Shown here piece by piece: positions 1,563-11,104 of a DNA stretch of 64,000 nucleotides. Position 1 is the stretch's first letter. Each line of letters opens with the position of its first letter. The translations under genes were made by a program, and so were the position numbers. A model generated the notes under the pieces. The model had not been told where the DNA came from. It saw only the letters and a list, made by a program, of their open reading frames with translations, and did no database searches. Source of the stretch: Chitinophagaceae bacterium (GTDB lineage: Bacteria > Bacteroidota > Bacteroidia > Chitinophagales > Chitinophagaceae); NCBI GenBank assembly GCA_947455215.1, contig CANGNA010000006.1, forward strand, positions 1-64,000. The letters are read 5' to 3'.

Positions 1563-4500
1563 TCACTGATTTTTCAGAAGAATACCAGTAATATTTTTCC
1601 ATTCTTCGCCACTTAAGGACGATGTAGATGGTTTTAATTCATCCCATTGTCTGACTGATAGTTGTTGAATTCTTTGTCTCAACTGTCTAAACGAACTAGG
1701 TTCTTCGGAATTGAAATATTGGGAGAAATTTCCGGCAAGGTTTCGAGGGATTCCTACCATCCTATAGGGTATTGATGCTTTATTATTCACTCCATAATAC
1801 AATAATGAGGGTATGTGGGTGTTTTCTGCAATTTCCTCTCCTGATGCTTTTACAATCCCCTCGAGAGCGCTAAGTCCCCAAGAAGATTTAAATGTAGTTT
1901 CAGTTAAATAGTTAATAAAATCGTTTATTCTATCTCCATCTGCTTTTTCTTTAAAAAATGGATGTATAAATGATATTTCCGATAAGTTATCTCCGTTTAC
2001 CCATCCTTTCAAAATGTTTGCAACGAGTTCGGGATTAAAAGGTGCGCTTCCAGCATCTGTACCCAATTTTGCTTCTCTCAATGTCCCTATAACCTCAATT
2101 TTCTTTTTTAAGTATTCGTTCCCGGTGCTGAATAGATTATCAGCATCCCAAGATTCAGGACTGCTAATTTCAGGCATATCTGATTTAGCTCTCATTATGG
2201 AAAGTATCGAAGGAACTGAGAACCCCGTTTTATCTGCAAATTTTAAAACTCCTCTATTTCGGTTTTGTAAATCAATATACAAAGTTTCGCATATCTTCAA
2301 AAAATTTGCTCTCTCTTGGCCTTGTAAGGTGAAATACCCGAAACTATCTTTAAACAATTCTTCCAGTTCGTCTCGATAATGGAATTCTTCAGAGACATTT
2401 AGAAGATGAATTAAATATTGAACTAATACCCCTAGTGATTTATAAGTGTCAAACAATTGAGCTCGTTGTTGGGCGTTATCATGTTGGGCGAATACTTTGA
2501 TTATATTTTCTGCTTGAAGAATTAATTCAGTTAGTGCGCTACTTACACTCAAGGATTGTTGTGAAATTAAATTGTGTGCATTTCTGATACTGGTAGGTGA
2601 ATTATATGGAAAAATGATCTTGCCAACATTATCCACTAGAGTTCTTCCTGCTCTTCCTGCGATATTAAGAAACTCATTTATTGATAAACGCCCCCCTCTT
2701 CCTTTTCTAGTATCGTCAATATATACAGTTGAAATTGGAAAATTAATACCCTGTGCAATCGTAGTCGTTGCACAGATATACTTGATTTCAGCCTTTTTAA
2801 TTAAATGTTCAACAAGAATTTTAGTATCTTCTGTTAGACCGGCATGATGTATACCAATTCCCTTTTTGACTACTCTTGATAAAGTTGTCACTTCTCCAAC
2901 TTCCTCTTCAATAAACTTAGATACTAATTCTTGTAATTCCGAAGTTCTTTGATTTCCTACGTAATTAGAAAGCTTATCAGCCTTTGAATCTGCAGTGCCT
3001 TTACCCCAGCACAGAAAAAGAATAGAATTTTTATTTCCTCCAAATAAATGTGTTGCTGCTTCGAATAGCCTGTCCTTTGGTCTCGTTTCGGTTAATTCGA
3101 AATCTCGTCCAATTGGCAATATTTTCTGCGTAGTGGTTTGTAAAAAGCTGTACGCAGACGGCTCAACAACCATTTGTAGTGTGCCGCCTGTTTCCCTTAA
3201 TCCCATAATTACTTTATCAGAAGGCTTCCACAAGACTTGAATTGGCGAAATAGCATTCTTTCCTCCTGCTAGCCATTCCTTGAGGCTATTAGCATTTGGA
3301 ATAAAAGGAGAAAGCAACAGAAATTTGGCAGTAGGCTTTTCTCTCTTAATTATTGATAACAATAATTCAAGTTTAGCGCCTCTATCTCCCTCTTTAATAT
3401 TATGAGCCTCGTCAACTATTATGAAAGAAACATTCTCAACCGATGGATGTTTCCTTCTGAGCATTAAATCAAATTTTTCAGGCGTTGAAACCAAAATATC
3501 TATCTCCTCTTGTAAAAAGACATCTTCTGTTGGATCAATTTCATTAACCTTCGAAGTCTTTTCTATTGATAAGTTTAATCCCTCAAAATCAGTACGAAGG
3601 TCAGACACTACTTGATTCACTAATGCACGAGTCGGTACAAGATAAACGATTTTAGTATTAGGATTTAATGCTTTAGTTTGAAGGATACAAAACTCAGCAA
3701 GTAATGTTTTTCCAGCGCTTGTTGGCATTGTAACAATTGTGGCGCTTGACGCTGCATCCAGTAAATTTTTACTTATCGCCTCCTGTTGAGAAGGAAGTAG
3801 ATCTATTTTATCAATTTGAGCCAAATTTTTACATAAATCAACAATGCTAGATCCAAGGTTTATTGTGCTAAACCAAATAGAATTTCTCTGTACTTCGATA
3901 CACGCTCTTTCAATAATTGGTATCAAAGAAAATAATCTTGGCGAATTAGTTAACGCTTCACGGGCGTATTTTGAATGCCTAGCTATTTCGGAAGATAAGT
4001 TGCCTTTATAACCATATCCTTGAACTAAATATGTTGCAGTTTCAATTAATACCTTTGTTAAATGGTATAGGCCCAAAAGTTCTACAGCATTTGGTACTTT
4101 TGCGCTTAACTCCAGATTATTTAAATAGACTTCCTCATAATGCTGTTGATGTAGTTTTAAATTATTTACGATGGCTATAACAGCTTCAGCATCCGCTAAT
4201 CCATTTTTCTTTCTAATCAATAATGTTATACCCGCAAGTATTTTATTAAGTAATGTAGTCTTCCAGTCACTTGAATTAACAGTGGAGGGAACATAATTAT
4301 AATCAAATAAGTCAATTCTTACCTTAATACTATTCTTCGACAAAAGGCCGACAGTGGCTAAGTAGAAAAAGTATACGCTTTCTGTAGGTACAGTATCGAT
4401 TCCCCATATAGTTTCAAATTCATCTGAGTGCGTGGTATTAGCAATGTCTATAGCTCTTAACTGATAATAAATACTTTCAAGGTCTTTTAATTCGTCCTCA

Positions 4501-4712
4501 GCCAATGAAACATTTCTATTTGGTTCTTCTAATTTTGAAAGAACGAGATTGAAAAGAAAAAACGAAAATCTAATGCTTTTACTCGCGTTAAAGTCATCGA
4601 TTATTTCTCCTTCATTTATTATCTTATTTAAATAATTAAACCGATTCTCAACTTCAATTTCTTGAAATTGAGACTGGTCAATTAAGTTTTTTATATTAAA
4701 GCTATTAGACAT
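1563..4712 (-). CDS. hamB: HamB-like DEAD/DEAH helicase of a Hachiman-type defence system
   Basis: A 1049-residue superfamily 2 helicase of the Ski2-like type. Visible motifs are a Q-like segment LLPSQQEAI (305-313), Walker A MPTSAGKT (329-336), STPEKFD (409-415), the DEAH box (434-437), HHAGL (622-626), motif V ATTTIAQGINFP (648-659) and motif VI NIAGRAGR (683-690). The first 300 residues are helical and the last 350 contain no domain I can name. The ATG overlaps the hamA stop in TAATG, so translation is probably coupled. In Hachiman systems HamB binds and scans DNA and restrains the HamA nuclease until phage interference releases it; assignment here rests on pairing with a DUF1837-like nuclease. 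The related AbpAB pair is an alternative name. The gene is much more AT-rich than the core genes, which suggests transfer. Confidence 0.85.
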   Translation of the reverse strand: MSNSFNIKNLIDQSQFQEIEVENRFNYLNKIINEGEIIDDFNASKSIRFSFFLFNLVLSKLEEPNRNVSLAEDELKDLESIYYQLRAIDIANTTHSDEFETIWGIDTVPTESVYFFYLATVGLLSKNSIKVRIDLFDYNYVPSTVNSSDWKTTLLNKILAGITLLIRKKNGLADAEAVIAIVNNLKLHQQHYEEVYLNNLELSAKVPNAVELLGLYHLTKVLIETATYLVQGYGYKGNLSSEIARHSKYAREALTNSPRLFSLIPIIERACIEVQRNSIWFSTINLGSSIVDLCKNLAQIDKIDLLPSQQEAISKNLLDAASSATIVTMPTSAGKTLLAEFCILQTKALNPNTKIVYLVPTRALVNQVVSDLRTDFEGLNLSIEKTSKVNEIDPTEDVFLQEEIDILVSTPEKFDLMLRRKHPSVENVSFIIVDEAHNIKEGDRGAKLELLLSIIKREKPTAKFLLLSPFIPNANSLKEWLAGGKNAISPIQVLWKPSDKVIMGLRETGGTLQMVVEPSAYSFLQTTTQKILPIGRDFELTETRPKDRLFEAATHLFGGNKNSILFLCWGKGTADSKADKLSNYVGNQRTSELQELVSKFIEEEVGEVTTLSRVVKKGIGIHHAGLTEDTKILVEHLIKKAEIKYICATTTIAQGINFPISTVYIDDTRKGRGGRLSINEFLNIAGRAGRTLVDNVGKIIFPYNSPTSIRNAHNLISQQSLSVSSALTELILQAENIIKVFAQHDNAQQRAQLFDTYKSLGVLVQYLIHLLNVSEEFHYRDELEELFKDSFGYFTLQGQERANFLKICETLYIDLQNRNRGVLKFADKTGFSVPSILSIMRAKSDMPEISSPESWDADNLFSTGNEYLKKKIEVIGTLREAKLGTDAGSAPFNPELVANILKGWVNGDNLSEISFIHPFFKEKADGDRINDFINYLTETTFKSSWGLSALEGIVKASGEEIAENTHIPSLLYYGVNNKASIPYRMVGIPRNLAGNFSQYFNSEEPSSFRQLRQRIQQLSVRQWDELKPSTSSLSGEEWKNITGILLKNQ

Positions 4713-5518
4713 TATAATGCGTCAATCTTACTATGAAATAAATCTATAACATATTCTATGTTCTTGTCATACGAGTAGATTGCGAATTGCACTTTACCCG
4801 GTCTAAAACTGTCTGTTTCTGTTTTAAGCTTGCCGAAGTCTTTAGGATCATTTAAACAGCTACTATCTCTAACTAAGCAACAGCCATATACCACTTCAAA
4901 AGCAGTATTGTTATCAGTGGAAAGGCAAAACAACACGTAGTGCATAACAGCTGCATGATCACCGGTGAGTTTTTTCGCATAATTAGCTATTCGTCTCTCT
5001 AGATATGCTTTGTCAGTTCTATTTTTCAAATGTGTTTTAAAAATTGAGTCCTCTTTTGAATCTACAACTTGAGGGGTACTATCCTCATTTGAAACTTTTG
5101 CTTCTCCTAATAACAACTCAATTTTACCTAATGAAGTTCTGTATCCAATCCCATCGAATCCTCGTCCAGGTAGATCTACAAGTTCTCGATCCCATAAATT
5201 TTTTAGAGGTAATATGAAATTTTCTGTCGCCTGCTCCTCTTCAAAGTAAATTGTCAACAGTAATTCACCCAAATCACTTCTATAAATGTCATTATAAGCT
5301 TTTCTTTTGTCATCTCCGACTCTTATTGGTTTCGAACTTTGTCGAATAATTTCTTTCAGTGCATCGGTGGAAAATCCAAGGTTTTTAAAAATAGGATGGT
5401 CTTCGTCGACTATAAATTTCGAGCGTAGTTCTATATATTTATTAGCAAGATTAGTAATGTATTCATCACTAACAGTAATATTTTTTACCTCAAAAATATC
5501 TGAACTGAGTGTTGGCAT
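4712..5518 (-). CDS. hamA: HamA-like PD-(D/E)XK nuclease (DUF1837) of a Hachiman-type system
   Basis: A 268-residue protein with a restriction-endonuclease-like core: an acidic helix at about 81-95 (SDLGELL), Asp122 in GRGFDGIGY, and the catalytic pair Glu139-x-Lys141 in LLLGEAKVS. Spacing and length fit HamA/DUF1837. HamA is the effector that degrades DNA when its helicase partner signals infection. The gene is first in a two-gene operon and its TAA overlaps the hamB ATG by one base. Base composition is AT-rich like hamB. I see no clear -7 TAnnTTTG box upstream. The family call comes from motif pattern and gene pairing; a profile search against HamA and AbpA would settle which name fits. Confidence 0.82.
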   Translation of the reverse strand: MPTLSSDIFEVKNITVSDEYITNLANKYIELRSKFIVDEDHPIFKNLGFSTDALKEIIRQSSKPIRVGDDKRKAYNDIYRSDLGELLLTIYFEEEQATENFILPLKNLWDRELVDLPGRGFDGIGYRTSLGKIELLLGEAKVSNEDSTPQVVDSKEDSIFKTHLKNRTDKAYLERRIANYAKKLTGDHAAVMHYVLFCLSTDNNTAFEVVYGCCLVRDSSCLNDPKDFGKLKTETDSFRPGKVQFAIYSYDKNIEYVIDLFHSKIDAL

Positions 5519-6959: not shown

Positions 6960-7115
6960 CACAGGCCCTGAAAGGGCCGGCTATAATAGCGTCGGGTTTC
7001 TCTCAGTCGCCGTAGCATTTATGCGAAGGAGACAACCCGACGGCTACAACACCCCGCCGCTCTCCGCTCTGTTACTCCGCTCTCATTGTCCCTCCGCTCT
7101 CATTGTCCCTCCGCT
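6960..7115. repeat. REP-like hairpins and a 17-bp tandem repeat after the OsmC gene
   Basis: 6964-6990 is an inverted half copy of the genome's GCAGGGTT...CCCTGC element family (GGCCCTGAAAGGGCC then GGCTATAATAGC). A long imperfect hairpin with GTCGGGTT/AACCCGAC arms follows. A 17-bp unit is repeated exactly at 7081-7097 and 7098-7114, inside a run of CCGCTCT words. Confidence 0.7.
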
Positions 7116-7116
7116 C

Positions 7117-7728
7117 TCAACTTCCTATTTCCGGCTGCAAAAACTCCGTTATCAGCGTTTGCCACTGCGCTTCCGATAATGCCGCCATAGCGCCCGATGC
7201 CACCGCACCATTGCGCAGATTATCCAGCACACTGCCCGTATCCGTATTCGGCAGCTCGTTACGACCGTGATACGATGCCGTCACCGCATTACCCATACGG
7301 CTGACGATGAAAGTAGACGTGGCCGAGTCTGTAAAAAAATGCGCCGTATCTCCTGCCCTGCCGTTGGGGTTCGTACACGGGCGCAAGCGCATGGCCGCGC
7401 TCTCCTGCTCAGCGTCCGCATCAGCATGCACGGCAATGGCCTCCACCATTACCCAGTCATACCCATCGCCCGCACGCGGACCCGGCCCCGTAATATCAAT
7501 ACGATAGCGGTCGCCCTCCATGGCCAGCCTGTGCGGATCATCCACACCATCCACCAGCATGAACTCGGCACTCAGCGCCCCGCACAACTTATGCCACACC
7601 CTCGGGTTCAGCATCCGCTTATAAGCCCTGGTAAAACACCGCACAGCATGCTCCCTGTCCACCTCCTCGCGCCTGTAATACAAGTCATTCTGCTTACCCG
7701 CCTCTTGTTCCGGTATCAAATGCAACAT
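7117..7728 (-). CDS. Conserved hypothetical protein
   Basis: A 203-residue cytoplasmic protein, with no signal peptide or membrane segment. It has a basic N-terminal third (REHAVRCFTRAYKRM), a mixed beta-rich middle ending in DYGWV-like strands, and an alanine-rich C-terminal helix. I do not recognise the family. Codon use and GC content match the core genes, and the translation is free of the odd composition seen in shadow frames. It stands alone between repeat-rich spacers, with no close neighbour on its strand. Confidence 0.65.
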   Translation of the reverse strand: MLHLIPEQEAGKQNDLYYRREEVDREHAVRCFTRAYKRMLNPRVWHKLCGALSAEFMLVDGVDDPHRLAMEGDRYRIDITGPGPRAGDGYDWVMVEAIAVHADADAEQESAAMRLRPCTNPNGRAGDTAHFFTDSATSTFIVSRMGNAVTASYHGRNELPNTDTGSVLDNLRNGAVASGAMAALSEAQWQTLITEFLQPEIGS

Positions 7729-8556
7729 ACACTTTCATCTTTTAGCCTGCAAGGCAATAAAAATTATGCCCGATACAACTTTGTATGAAAAACGCCAGCC
7801 CACTGACATAGGCATTAAGTTATGCCAACGGGGCCTTAACTAAGAAGCAATTGTTAGCACCAACGACAATTTCTGCCGATAGAAAAAAATGCATGTTGCC
7901 GGCAGTTTTTTTTGAGGTAAGCCTTGTAAGCTGCTGATGTATAGCGCAGGTATAAAAATGTGCTATATGGTGTTTTCTGCCGATGTGGCATTTTTGCCGG
8001 TGGCAAAATGCCGATGGCGAAGGTGTGTGATAGTGTCATAGTAAAAGATCTTTAGTGCCCGGGAACCGCTCCCGAACGCCACAAAGATACGCCTAACGGA
8101 GGGGCGGTTCCAAATAAAGATATGCACAAAATTAATGGCCGAATGCTGCCCAAAGAGTCTTGCCCCGGAACTACAGCGTAACCAACTGAGCCACAGAGTG
8201 TCACACTGAGCCTGCCGAAGTGCGGCACGGACATGGGTGCACTAAATACACGGTCTTTGCGAGGAACACCCTTTCCCGAGCGCTTTCGGGAAATCAATCT
8301 CGCAAGTGAATGGATCGTTTTAGTGCCCGGTTGGTTGGCGCCCGTGTGCTGGTTGTTGGCGGGGACGCCAACAACGGCGGAATGTCTTACCTGATGTGTC
8401 ATTGGCAGCCCCGTCGAAGTGCGGCACGGACATGGGCTATATATTGCAACGCCGCTGTCCTGTCTTCAGACTGACAGCCCACAAGCGGACATTTTCGTTT
8501 TCGGATCTAGGGGGCCTATTGACAAAGTATCGATTTTGGGTACCCAACAGCTAAGC
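7729..8556. other. Gene-free, repeat-rich spacer
   Basis: About 830 bases with no convincing gene. 8180-8240 and 8395-8436 carry words such as GAAGTGCGGCACGGACATGGG, also found inverted at 16285-16325. 8255-8315 has a GCGAGGA...CAATCTCGCAAG element. 8450-8482 is an inverted copy of the repeat found at 21217, 21379, 21540 and 23031, and its homology to those copies fades at about 8508, next to the AT-rich module. Confidence 0.65.
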
Positions 8557-10773
8557 TTAATTCAATTCAATAACCCGATCAAAAATACCGATAACTTTAA
8601 ATGAATGTAGATCGTTTGGGTCCAATATAATATCCCTAAAAGAACTATCGGTAGAATTTGGTTTCAATACTATGCTCTCGTGCATCCATTCACCCTCTGC
8701 TGATTGTTGTTTAGTGCTCTGATATTCTTTAATTGTATAGCGCGACCCAAATAGAGATGTCTGAATATCGGTATCTTCACATAACACTATCAACCCATTT
8801 CTTGAGCCACCGGAATACTTTCTAAATAGACAAATAGCTCCATCCGGTATAACATTATTCATTGAGTTACCGACTACCTTACAAGCAAACATATCACTGG
8901 TATACTTGACATATGAAGGCACTTCAACCCATTTTACATTATCACTTTTTTGAACTTGGCTAAAATCACCAGCCGCGATCTCCAAATCAAAAAAAGGAAC
9001 ATAATTCAGTTCAGTTTTTCTCTCATCATATGACAAAATTGAAATGCCGTTTTTCTCATTTATCCCGTGAACATGATTCCGAAAATACTCTCGTAAGTTT
9101 TTGTCACATACATAAACATAAGCTCCCTTTACCCCTCGCAGCAGCATAGTTTTGTATATATTAATGATATACGGCTTAAGATCTCTTATATCTTTTATTG
9201 ACTGCTTACCGTTAATGTCAAAATAGGAACTTGGTACGACTTTAACCTCATTCACAGTTGGATCGTAAACAATCTCATTCCCGAAAATCACACCAATATA
9301 ATTCAAATCGTACCCTTGGGTTGTATGTATACAACCTACCTCGTTGATCGCATTGGGGGAATTGACCCAATCAATATTGGTGCTATTCCACTTCAACTCT
9401 GTATCTCCGATTTTTATATCATTCAATTGACTATTTGCTTTAGAAATCCATGGCCACGAATAACCTGCAACTACTCTTGACAAACCAAAATCTCTGTCAC
9501 GCTGCTTTATCTGACCAACCATTTCATCAATAGAATCAAATAATTTGAACTCGTAGTTTTTAGGATAAAATTTAGCGTCAGATTTACCGATTCTTACATT
9601 TAAGAGGTCGTCAACAAACTTTATGTAGTCAGCACCACCTAATACACGCATCTGAGATTGTAATCTATGTGTAGCTGTTGTCGATAATTGCTTTAATCTT
9701 TGAAAATGTGCAGAACTAACATCGGAAGGTTTTATTGACTGGTTCTCATCATAAAAAAGAATCAATTTTTTACTTTGCAGCAAAACCCAATCCAATTCAT
9801 CAGCAGTAAATTTATCGAACCCTAGCTTTTCACAAGCTTTATCAAACGCGCCATAATATGCACCGAGATTGACACGCTGTCTTAACCTATGAGATTCATC
9901 AACTAGCAGTATATCGTATTTTTTGCCCGCAACATCTGATGGGCCTATAACCATTTTAGGACTTAATCCTTTTACATTCTTAAACACATTCTGGAGTGTC
10001 TTTCGAAAGGATGACATTGGCACAATCAACGCCATTTCCAAAACAGGATACTTATTTTTAACTGCTATAGCTAAATCACGAATATGAGTTTCGTCTTCAT
10101 CAAACTCTCTGAAGTCTAATGTATCAGATTCAGAATTTAGCAACTTGAATAAAAAAACAGCTAAAATTGTTTTACCAGTACCAGCACCTCCCTCTATCAC
10201 AAACGAGTTCACGGTGTTTGATAATATAGCATTTAAAACAGATGCAATACTTCGCCTTTGTTCTTTAGTTAGAGATTTATAGGGTGAATACTTAAAAAGA
10301 TCGGAGTTATTTATAGACTCTAATGAGTGCTTTACAATTCCCTCTGATCGTAAACAATTCCAAATGGTTGTAAAGGCATTCCAATAGATTTCCTGTTTTT
10401 GGTAATAATTATGATTGGCCACTCCAATATTAGCATTCATCAACTTATATTGCCCGTCTCCAGAAATATATTTTATAAGGTTGGATTCAATATCTAACGT
10501 CGCTGATTTGTTGAAAAGGAAACTAGAAATAAAGTGAACCAGGGTAAGCTTGTTCTTCTTGTTATTTTTTAAGTGAGCAGACATTCTTGCCGTAACGTCA
10601 GTGGTTTCGCCAACGTACGCCTCCTTTTCCTTTTCATCACTTATCAGGTACACAATCGGCCAATTATGTATAACATCATCGTCGGATAATCTATCGACTA
10701 ATTGTTCGTCAAATAAATATCTTTTTAACTTAACTTCCTTTTTAAAATCAAAGTTCGTTATACTTTTTTGCAT
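8557..10773 (-). CDS. GIY-YIG nuclease / DUF2075 helicase / LexA-like S24 peptidase fusion
   Basis: 738 residues with three recognisable parts. Residues 38-105 fit a GIY-YIG nuclease: VYLI, YVG (53-55), Arg63 and Glu96 at the expected places. Residues 190-560 are a DUF2075/Schlafen-type helicase: Walker A GGAGTGKT (195-202), Walker B LLVDESH (289-295), QSQMR (372-376), TTQGYDL (484-490) and LLRGVKGAYVY (544-554). Residues 600-738 resemble LexA/UmuD-type S24 peptidases: a cleavage-like IAAGDFS with Ala601-Gly602, Ser637 in VVGNSMNN, and Lys682 in YTIKEY. Gly-to-Ser spacing (35) is close to LexA. I infer that the protein can cut itself and free the nuclease-helicase part on a damage signal. It overlaps the mazG-like gene by 26 bp and is AT-rich, like the hamAB pair. 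Confidence 0.85.
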   Translation of the reverse strand: MQKSITNFDFKKEVKLKRYLFDEQLVDRLSDDDVIHNWPIVYLISDEKEKEAYVGETTDVTARMSAHLKNNKKNKLTLVHFISSFLFNKSATLDIESNLIKYISGDGQYKLMNANIGVANHNYYQKQEIYWNAFTTIWNCLRSEGIVKHSLESINNSDLFKYSPYKSLTKEQRRSIASVLNAILSNTVNSFVIEGGAGTGKTILAVFLFKLLNSESDTLDFREFDEDETHIRDLAIAVKNKYPVLEMALIVPMSSFRKTLQNVFKNVKGLSPKMVIGPSDVAGKKYDILLVDESHRLRQRVNLGAYYGAFDKACEKLGFDKFTADELDWVLLQSKKLILFYDENQSIKPSDVSSAHFQRLKQLSTTATHRLQSQMRVLGGADYIKFVDDLLNVRIGKSDAKFYPKNYEFKLFDSIDEMVGQIKQRDRDFGLSRVVAGYSWPWISKANSQLNDIKIGDTELKWNSTNIDWVNSPNAINEVGCIHTTQGYDLNYIGVIFGNEIVYDPTVNEVKVVPSSYFDINGKQSIKDIRDLKPYIINIYKTMLLRGVKGAYVYVCDKNLREYFRNHVHGINEKNGISILSYDERKTELNYVPFFDLEIAAGDFSQVQKSDNVKWVEVPSYVKYTSDMFACKVVGNSMNNVIPDGAICLFRKYSGGSRNGLIVLCEDTDIQTSLFGSRYTIKEYQSTKQQSAEGEWMHESIVLKPNSTDSSFRDIILDPNDLHSFKVIGIFDRVIELN

Positions 10774-11068
10774 TGCCTCTGGACTTTTCTATTGGATATT
10801 TTATTGCATTTTGTTGAATCTTATCTAACACTATTTGTTTTATATCAAACTTCATTGTGTCTGCCAACAAAAAAGCATAAGCAAAAACATCAGCTAACTC
10901 CTCCTTAACTTTATCATGGTTCGCCTCTTCAACACTTTTCCATAGAAACTGCTCTAGCAACTCATTTGCCTCTATGCTTAGTGCTATAGAAAGATCTTTT
11001 GGATTATGGAATTTCTCCCAATCCCGATCGTTACGGAATTTTAGCAAGGCATCTATAATCTCCTGCAT
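10748..11068 (-). CDS. MazG-like nucleotide pyrophosphohydrolase
   Basis: A 106-residue single-domain all-alpha NTP pyrophosphatase. RNDRDWEKFHNPKDLS starts the fold, EANELLE supplies the first metal-binding glutamates (ExxE type), and EELADVFAYAFLLAD supplies the second (ExxD). Such proteins hydrolyse NTPs or dNTPs to NMP and pyrophosphate, limiting misincorporation or starving phage replication. The stop lies 26 bp inside the downstream fusion gene, so the two are co-transcribed and probably translationally coupled. A TATATTTG box lies about 20 bp upstream of the ATG. Pairing with a nuclease-helicase suggests a defence or damage-response role, which is inference. Confidence 0.88.
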   Translation of the reverse strand: MQEIIDALLKFRNDRDWEKFHNPKDLSIALSIEANELLEQFLWKSVEEANHDKVKEELADVFAYAFLLADTMKFDIKQIVLDKIQQNAIKYPIEKSRGNAKKYNEL

Positions 11069-11086: not shown

Positions 11087-11104
11087 CAAATATACAGTAT
11101 ACAA
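11087..11104 (-). promoter_or_regulatory. -7 promoter box and overlapping palindrome upstream of mazG-like gene
   Basis: On the minus strand TATATTTG (11087-11094) matches the Bacteroidota -7 consensus TAnnTTTG. It overlaps the palindrome TATAC-A-GTATA (11091-11101), a shape expected for a dimeric repressor. No -33 TTG is found at the usual 19-20 bp spacing, so strength is uncertain. Confidence 0.4.

Follow-up and report, generated by a model that had tools for sequence, protein, structure and literature searches.

A nuclease-helicase with a LexA-like tail and a MazG-like partner form a candidate RecA-responsive restriction operon in Bacteroidota and Pseudomonadota

A GIY-YIG nuclease-helicase ending in a LexA-like domain

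A 64,000-nt stretch of DNA from a Chitinophagaceae bacterium (GCA_947455215.1, contig CANGNA010000006.1, positions 1-64,000 of the forward strand; hereafter the window) contains two overlapping genes that an earlier note had read as a nuclease-helicase fused to a LexA-like peptidase and coupled to MazG. We found the coordinates of the open reading frames (ORFs), the protein lengths and the 26-bp overlap of the two frames (10748-10773) to be as that note gave them (Table 1). Along the larger, 738-residue protein Pfam matched the three proposed domains in the proposed order, namely a GIY-YIG nuclease (residues 40-77, PF01541, E 2.8e-7), a Schlafen (SLFN) group 3 helicase or DUF2075 domain (SLFN-g3_helicase, residues 191-557, PF09848, E 5.4e-65) and a C-terminal Peptidase_S24 domain (residues 598-666, PF00717, E 2.8e-5). 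Its 106-residue partner belongs to the MazG-like family (PF12643, E 8.5e-20). Judging from sequence and predicted structure, we consider it a reasonable, though far from settled, reading that the pair is a two-gene restriction-type operon directed against phages or plasmids, in which a RecA-triggered, self-cleaving tail would control the nuclease-helicase and the MazG-like protein would sanitise the pool of deoxynucleoside triphosphates (dNTPs) beside it.

A scan of genomes from 84,980 species returned 344 relatives of the larger protein, the best 80 of which were examined, and conservation was read from an alignment of 88 full-length homologues with 42-99.9% pairwise identity. In the nuclease domain V41, Y42, Y53, G55, R63, H67 and E96 are invariant or almost so; the catalytic candidates R63 and E96 are invariant, as are the core Walker A and B residues of the helicase, whose other motifs are retained. 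An AlphaFold2 model of the whole protein, built from 62 aligned sequences, reached a mean predicted local distance difference test score (pLDDT) of 83.9, and fold comparisons, which also included Foldseek, matched its helicase to UvrD (Z 17.1), Dda (Z 15.7) and human SLFN11 and SLFN14 (Z 15.2). This helicase domain is what the protein shares with the group 3 Schlafens SLFN11 and SLFN14 and with solitary DUF2075 proteins (PADLOC candidate PDC-S41); it differs from both in its GIY-YIG domain, S24 tail and mazG partner, and no Schlafen/AlbA RNase domain was found by Pfam at E values up to 1, the GIY-YIG domain standing in its place. Bacillota GIY-YIG-DUF2075 proteins (e.g. L126 and L129) have the nuclease as well as the group 3 helicase but end after the latter and have no adjoining mazG. 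PADLOC 2.0 returned no full-length match to a named system for the nuclease-helicase, only partial and weak ones (Nhi at 9e-13, AbiO and PDC-S14), and neither the architecture nor its pairing with MazG turned up in open-access PMC papers.

Helicase and tail are joined by a linker (residues 566-592) with a mean column conservation of 0.39, compared to 0.66-0.77 in the domains, and a pLDDT of ~55-62. In one homologue (L038, 7112-10874) the linker is enlarged to ~90 residues and an overlapping Fic/DUF4172 gene comes next. Modelled alone from 20 sequences, the tail is predicted with good confidence (pLDDT 87.8) to adopt the fold of the LexA C-terminal domain (Z 15.0-15.3, root-mean-square deviation 2.1-2.2 over 121 residues; 1jhe, Z 15.3). 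Cleavable-state and RecA-bound forms are among its top matches, the latter including LexA in 8gms (Z 14.8) and lambda CI in 8gmu (Z 15.0). A fold resembling only that of signal peptidases was ruled out, as these scored Z 5.9-7.2 against 15 for LexA. At the sequence level a profile of the tail searched against PDB sequences returned LexA entries alone, the best of them weak (E 0.026).

The residues required of a self-cleaving protease, which the earlier note had placed at Ser637, Lys682 and Ala601-Gly602, are all present. Gly602 and Ser637 lie 35 residues apart and Ser637 and Lys682 45 apart; the corresponding distances in LexA are 34 and 37, and in self-cleaving S24 domains generally the Ala/Cys-Gly dipeptide precedes the serine by ~34-37 residues. 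Across the alignment A601, G602, F604, S637 and K682 are invariant (88/88) and A600 is kept in 87/88, while residues 598, 599 and 603 beside the cleavage site vary, which argues that the retention of A601, G602, S637 and K682 is not due to chance. In its fold (Z 15), its Ser-Lys dyad and an Ala-Gly dipeptide at a LexA-like distance the tail thus resembles LexA, UmuD and lambda CI, whose S24 C-terminal domains serve as dimer interfaces. By contrast, the window protein has no helix-turn-helix, its N-terminus consists of the GIY-YIG and helicase domains, its Ser-Lys spacing is greater, and the peptidase sits at the C-terminal end of a nuclease-helicase rather than on a DNA-binding repressor or polymerase subunit. 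Because the dyad, the AAG site and the mazG pairing described below are all retained and a LexA fold is predicted, the interpretation of the tail as a self-cleaving, RecA-responsive switch is, as judged by anatomy, well supported.

Table 1. Positions of the two genes, their domains and candidate functional sites in the window
Feature	Position	Strand	Description
GIY-YIG / SLFN-group-3 helicase / LexA-like S24 protein	8557..10773	-	738 aa
mazG-like gene	10748..11068	-	106 aa; all-alpha nucleoside triphosphate (NTP) pyrophosphohydrolase, DCTPP1/RS21-C6 kind; first in operon
GIY-YIG nuclease domain	10456..10668	-	residues ~36-106; catalytic candidates R63, E96; PF01541
Superfamily 1 (SF1) helicase domain, Schlafen group 3 / DUF2075	9079..10281	-	residues ~165-565; PF09848
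Variable helicase-tail linker	8998..9078	-	residues 566-592; low conservation, low pLDDT
LexA-like S24 tail	8569..8997	-	residues 593-735; PF00717 and predicted fold
Putative self-cleavage site Ala600-Ala601-Gly602	8968..8976	-	conservation
Ser637, catalytic serine candidate	8863..8865	-	88/88
Lys682, catalytic lysine candidate	8728..8730	-	88/88
Possible Bacteroidota-type -7 promoter element TATATTTG	11087..11094	-	upstream of mazG; weak

Distribution of the family and its pairing with mazG

Bacteroidota and Gammaproteobacteria account for most of the best 80 of the 344 relatives; some are from Betaproteobacteria and one is from a Neomarinimicrobiota metagenome-assembled genome (MAG). Within and across phyla the distribution is sporadic: only 7 of 296 Bacteroidota genomes encode the GIY-YIG-SLFN-tail protein, which is absent from the other genomes of the window's own family listed in that set, and DNA comparison with a Pseudomonas copy found none in E. 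coli. Viral contigs held no relative of the full 738-residue protein; the tail profile retrieved from them distant proteins only, nearly all repressor-sized (200-300 residues) and 23-31% identical. Two homologues (L029, 7796-9982, and L072, 219-2405) are interrupted by stops or frameshifts in an otherwise conserved locus and are perhaps decaying copies.

The mazG neighbour proved to be a constant of these loci. In each of the 11 loci of a first survey it is the gene immediately upstream, in the same orientation, and all 78 further loci with enough upstream DNA have it immediately upstream too, mostly with a 4-bp overlap of the ATGA type. Ahead of mazG itself, the promoter-like TAnnTTTG occurs at 23 of 88 loci (shuffled mean 12, maximum 23), a weak signal. 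Solitary 660-residue SLFN-g3 proteins of the same phylum, the PDC-S41 class, have mazG in none of 19 loci, which indicates that the pairing is specific. It also extends to proteins without the tail. Two tail-less GIY-YIG-SLFN proteins keep mazG, one at L037 and one (L128) on a faecal contig labelled bacteriophage, and a class of 620-residue SLFN-g3 proteins, likewise tail-less, has mazG directly upstream in 5 of 7 loci. Those five (L153-L157, e.g. L155 at 7003-9188) carry a ~240-residue N-terminal domain of unidentified family; at the remaining two, an HNH gene takes the place of mazG (L158), or an unidentified gene with an Hjc-like match below the cut-off lies upstream and mazG one gene beyond (L159). 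Since tail-less relatives retain it, mazG belongs with the nuclease-helicase and not with the tail, and the partnership with a pyrophosphohydrolase is kept more steadily than the tail itself. L037 groups with the tailed L036 and L038, as would fit loss of the tail from an intact core.

The earlier note had called the partner a single-domain MazG pyrophosphohydrolase. Its membership of the MazG-like family stands, and its nearest solved relatives are dCTP pyrophosphatase 1 proteins (DCTPP1; 8.9e-17 with the single sequence, 2.4e-22 with a profile) rather than classical MazG, an entry named simply 'pyrophosphatase' (4qgp) scoring about equally. The alignment with DCTPP1/RS21-C6 covers nearly the whole length of the protein, which differs from these relatives in being bacterial and operonic and whose dCTPase-type substrate is putative. 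All four residues of the MazG ExxE...ExxD metal site (E33, E36, E57 and D60) are invariant in 88 of 88 sequences. PADLOC 2.0 gave zero matches for this protein.

The same tail on other enzymes and a parallel pairing with NUDIX

We searched the tail profile against the 296 Bacteroidota genomes and took matches with E values up to 1e-8 as strong. All 12 such matches sit on helicases: seven GIY-YIG-SLFN proteins, four PLDc-ResIII-DUF3427 proteins and one HsdR-like protein. Among 398 Pseudomonadota genomes drawn around one carrying genome, the profile matched three GIY-YIG-SLFN proteins and two SLFN helicases whose N-terminus differs (L161 and L162), each of which adjoins a MazG gene, and gave one weak match to a repressor-sized protein. 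Overall, the tail was seen on seven PLDc-ResIII-DUF3427 proteins, two HsdR-like proteins and three other SLFN helicases, with the AAG site, the serine and the lysine intact in every one of them. These tails are 36-48% identical to that of the window protein, and in a tree built by a quick method they group mostly by host enzyme, those of the other SLFN helicases adjoining the HsdR-like ones. Because nearly half of its residues are identical between unrelated cores, the conserved job of the tail is probably independent of the core, and dimerisation combined with RecA-triggered self-cleavage would be the obvious candidate. The HsdR-like proteins are of the SWI2/SNF2 type and carry the tail at their end (L045, 3327-7570, and L152, 6036-9584); at L045 an HNH gene lies directly upstream.

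The DUF3427 proteins are of the same kind as SauUSI, a type IV restriction enzyme that uses ATP to cut DNA containing 5-methylcytosine (m5C) or 5-hydroxymethylcytosine (PMC3874153). Systems of this kind (PLDc-helicase-DUF3427; mREase_IV in PADLOC) resemble the window pair in joining nuclease and helicase in a single chain and in having a small NTP pyrophosphohydrolase as partner, and some of their Bacteroidota members end in the same S24 tail. They differ in that the window protein combines GIY-YIG with an SF1 helicase, Pfam detecting neither PLDc nor DUF3427 in it, and in that its partner is MazG-like and not a NUDIX protein. A NUDIX gene adjoins the tailed DUF3427 genes (L040-L044) and all five tail-less ones that were checked, including one in the window's own genome (L193, 2202-5763 on contig C33), where it overlaps a 1050-residue DUF3427 gene without an S24 tail. 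In two genomes, a Flavobacterium MAG (L059, 5633-12523) and Arenibacter nanhaiticus (L062, 1316-9747), both tailed systems stand side by side in the same orientation, MazG/GIY-YIG-SLFN-S24 followed by NUDIX/DUF3427-S24; at L059 the NUDIX gene is split into two ORFs.

Among solved structures the NUDIX partner is nearest to CTP pyrophosphohydrolases of the NudG/Orf135 type (including 2rrk) and to MutT proteins. Hydrolysis of 5-methyl-dCTP has been reported both for E. coli Orf135 and for RS21-C6/DCTPP1 (PMC10742078). MazG-like and NUDIX proteins have unrelated folds and share a reported speciality, and two unrelated nuclease-helicases would be accompanied by the same activity, provided that the substrate can be carried over from the family to these members. 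As relatives of both partners hydrolyse 5-modified dCTP, the change in nucleotide pools that the earlier note ascribed to MazG can be stated more narrowly, with modified dCTP as a possible target.

A proposed RecA-responsive restriction operon and its alternatives

From the domains, their conservation, the pairing and the predicted fold we infer not only self-cleavage and its RecA trigger but also a direction for the switch, substrates among DNA and nucleotides, and a role in defence. The large protein would be a GIY-YIG nuclease that translocates on DNA and has a LexA-like tail at its C-terminus; in its intact form the enzyme would police incoming DNA in undamaged cells. Once RecA has assembled into filaments on single-stranded DNA, the tail would cut its own chain at Ala601-Gly602 by means of Ser637 and Lys682 and separate from the nuclease-helicase, in the manner of LexA, UmuD and lambda CI. 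Loss of the tail would, slightly more probably than releasing an active nuclease, turn the enzyme down and so relieve restriction from within while host DNA is damaged, and the DCTPP1-like partner may remove modified dNTPs and thereby either spare host DNA or starve phages that use them. Alleviation of type I restriction takes place by ClpXP degradation of HsdR (PMC4231737, PMC11109961); the likeness is one of idea only, a damage-linked down-regulation of a helicase-nuclease, and in the window system the enzyme would cut itself, with no external protease. The sporadic spread across phyla fits a role in defence, as does a pair of Hachiman-like genes at a distance of 3 kb from the nuclease-helicase (1563-5518, minus strand), which encodes a 1049-residue HamB-like helicase (PADLOC PDC-M23B 2e-187, HamB 3e-64) and a 268-residue protein with weak HamA/PDC-M23A matches.

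Several observations weigh against such a restriction operon. Upstream of mazG, SOS boxes occur no more often than in shuffled sequence (CTAA-N5-TTAG at 3 of 88 loci, GGA-N5-TCC at 2 and the E. coli type at none). The Ser-Lys spacing exceeds that of LexA, the GIY-YIG protein shows no recognised domain for sensing modifications, and the existence of tail-less homologues with mazG means that the tail is not essential. Carrying genomes show no shortage of m5C methyltransferases (6 of 11, compared to 93 of 198), leaving a general dependence on 5-methylcytosine unsupported. A comparison of 100 neighbouring proteins with 100 from elsewhere in Bacteroidota genomes, using PADLOC at 1e-15, speaks neither for nor against a defence neighbourhood: each set gave ~55 families, the control happening to hold CBASS-type and type I methyltransferase genes.

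The direction of the switch is the point at which our interpretation departs from the earlier note, which had proposed a damage- or phage-activated switch. The anatomy of the tail supports self-cleavage well; the second part of that proposal, that cleavage frees the nuclease-helicase, does not follow, since inactivation explains the sharing of the tail by three unrelated kinds of restriction enzyme at least equally well. Because S24 domains dimerise their hosts, because unrelated restriction enzymes carry the tail and because control is needed at times of damage, we lean tentatively towards cleavage as an off-switch, placing it only a little ahead of activation. Under the latter, which we regard as rather unlikely and yet the foremost alternative, the tail would hold the nuclease-helicase latent until RecA filaments, increased by infection or by damage, triggered a UmuD-like cut that freed an aggressive nuclease to destroy phage DNA or kill the cell. 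The natural tail-less proteins with mazG (L037 and L128) resemble the predicted cleavage product and indicate that the core can stand alone, a point that counts against an off-switch all the more as L037 groups with tailed proteins, and a flexible, variable linker would suit release. However, conservation of the tail between unrelated cores makes a core-specific inhibitory surface unlikely, tail-less enzymes would be constitutively on, and SauUSI, which is related to the DUF3427 class and has no tail, restricts as one polypeptide chain with no such trigger (PMC3874153).

The roles of the two proteins could also be reversed, with the MazG-like protein as an effector that depletes dCTP or phage hydroxymethyl-dCTP and the nuclease-helicase as its sensor. 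Defences that deplete nucleotides are known, and the nearest characterised relatives of the protein are dCTP pyrophosphatases. MazG has moreover been placed among uncharacterised predicted defence domains (PMC13092281). Nevertheless, a dCTPase that is always translated would need a control, of which none is visible, and the NUDIX partners in the parallel systems are sanitiser-type enzymes, so we judge this arrangement to be quite unlikely. A system for DNA repair or mutagenesis, in which a UvrC/UvrD-like nuclease-helicase under SOS control works with a dNTP sanitiser, seems more improbable still: GIY-YIG, an SF1 helicase with a UvrD-like fold match, a LexA-like tail and a house-cleaning enzyme would all fit, but the genes are scattered across phyla, rare in Bacteroidota and absent from the listed genomes of the same family, and their tail is common to restriction enzymes. 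Least probable in our estimation is a tail that acts as a dimerisation or protein-binding module only, as the dimer interfaces of LexA, UmuD and CI might suggest, its cleavage in cells having been lost, because the AAG site would then be expected to drift, whereas the cleavage dipeptide, serine and lysine are invariant in 88 homologues and recur on unrelated enzymes.

Beyond the window operon, we put forward as a more speculative possibility that the GIY-YIG-SLFN, PLDc-DUF3427 and HsdR-like proteins form a class of SOS-gated restriction enzymes, which RecA would switch irreversibly, without a protease, through their common LexA-type tail. Two of the three kinds pair with a MazG-like or NUDIX protein, and these partners, themselves unrelated, may both serve to remove modified dCTP and so keep host DNA from turning into a target. 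If this holds true, an SOS signal would have been wired directly into restriction enzymes by fusion of a LexA-type domain, several times and in unrelated enzymes, and bacteria would possess a molecular answer to damage-linked control of restriction that does not depend on ClpXP. That nuclease-helicases are accompanied, in parallel, by two unrelated dNTP pyrophosphohydrolases makes it testable whether some restriction systems must also clean the nucleotide pool, and since this widespread family occurs in cultured Pseudomonas, Marinobacter and halomonads too, these ideas are open to experiment.

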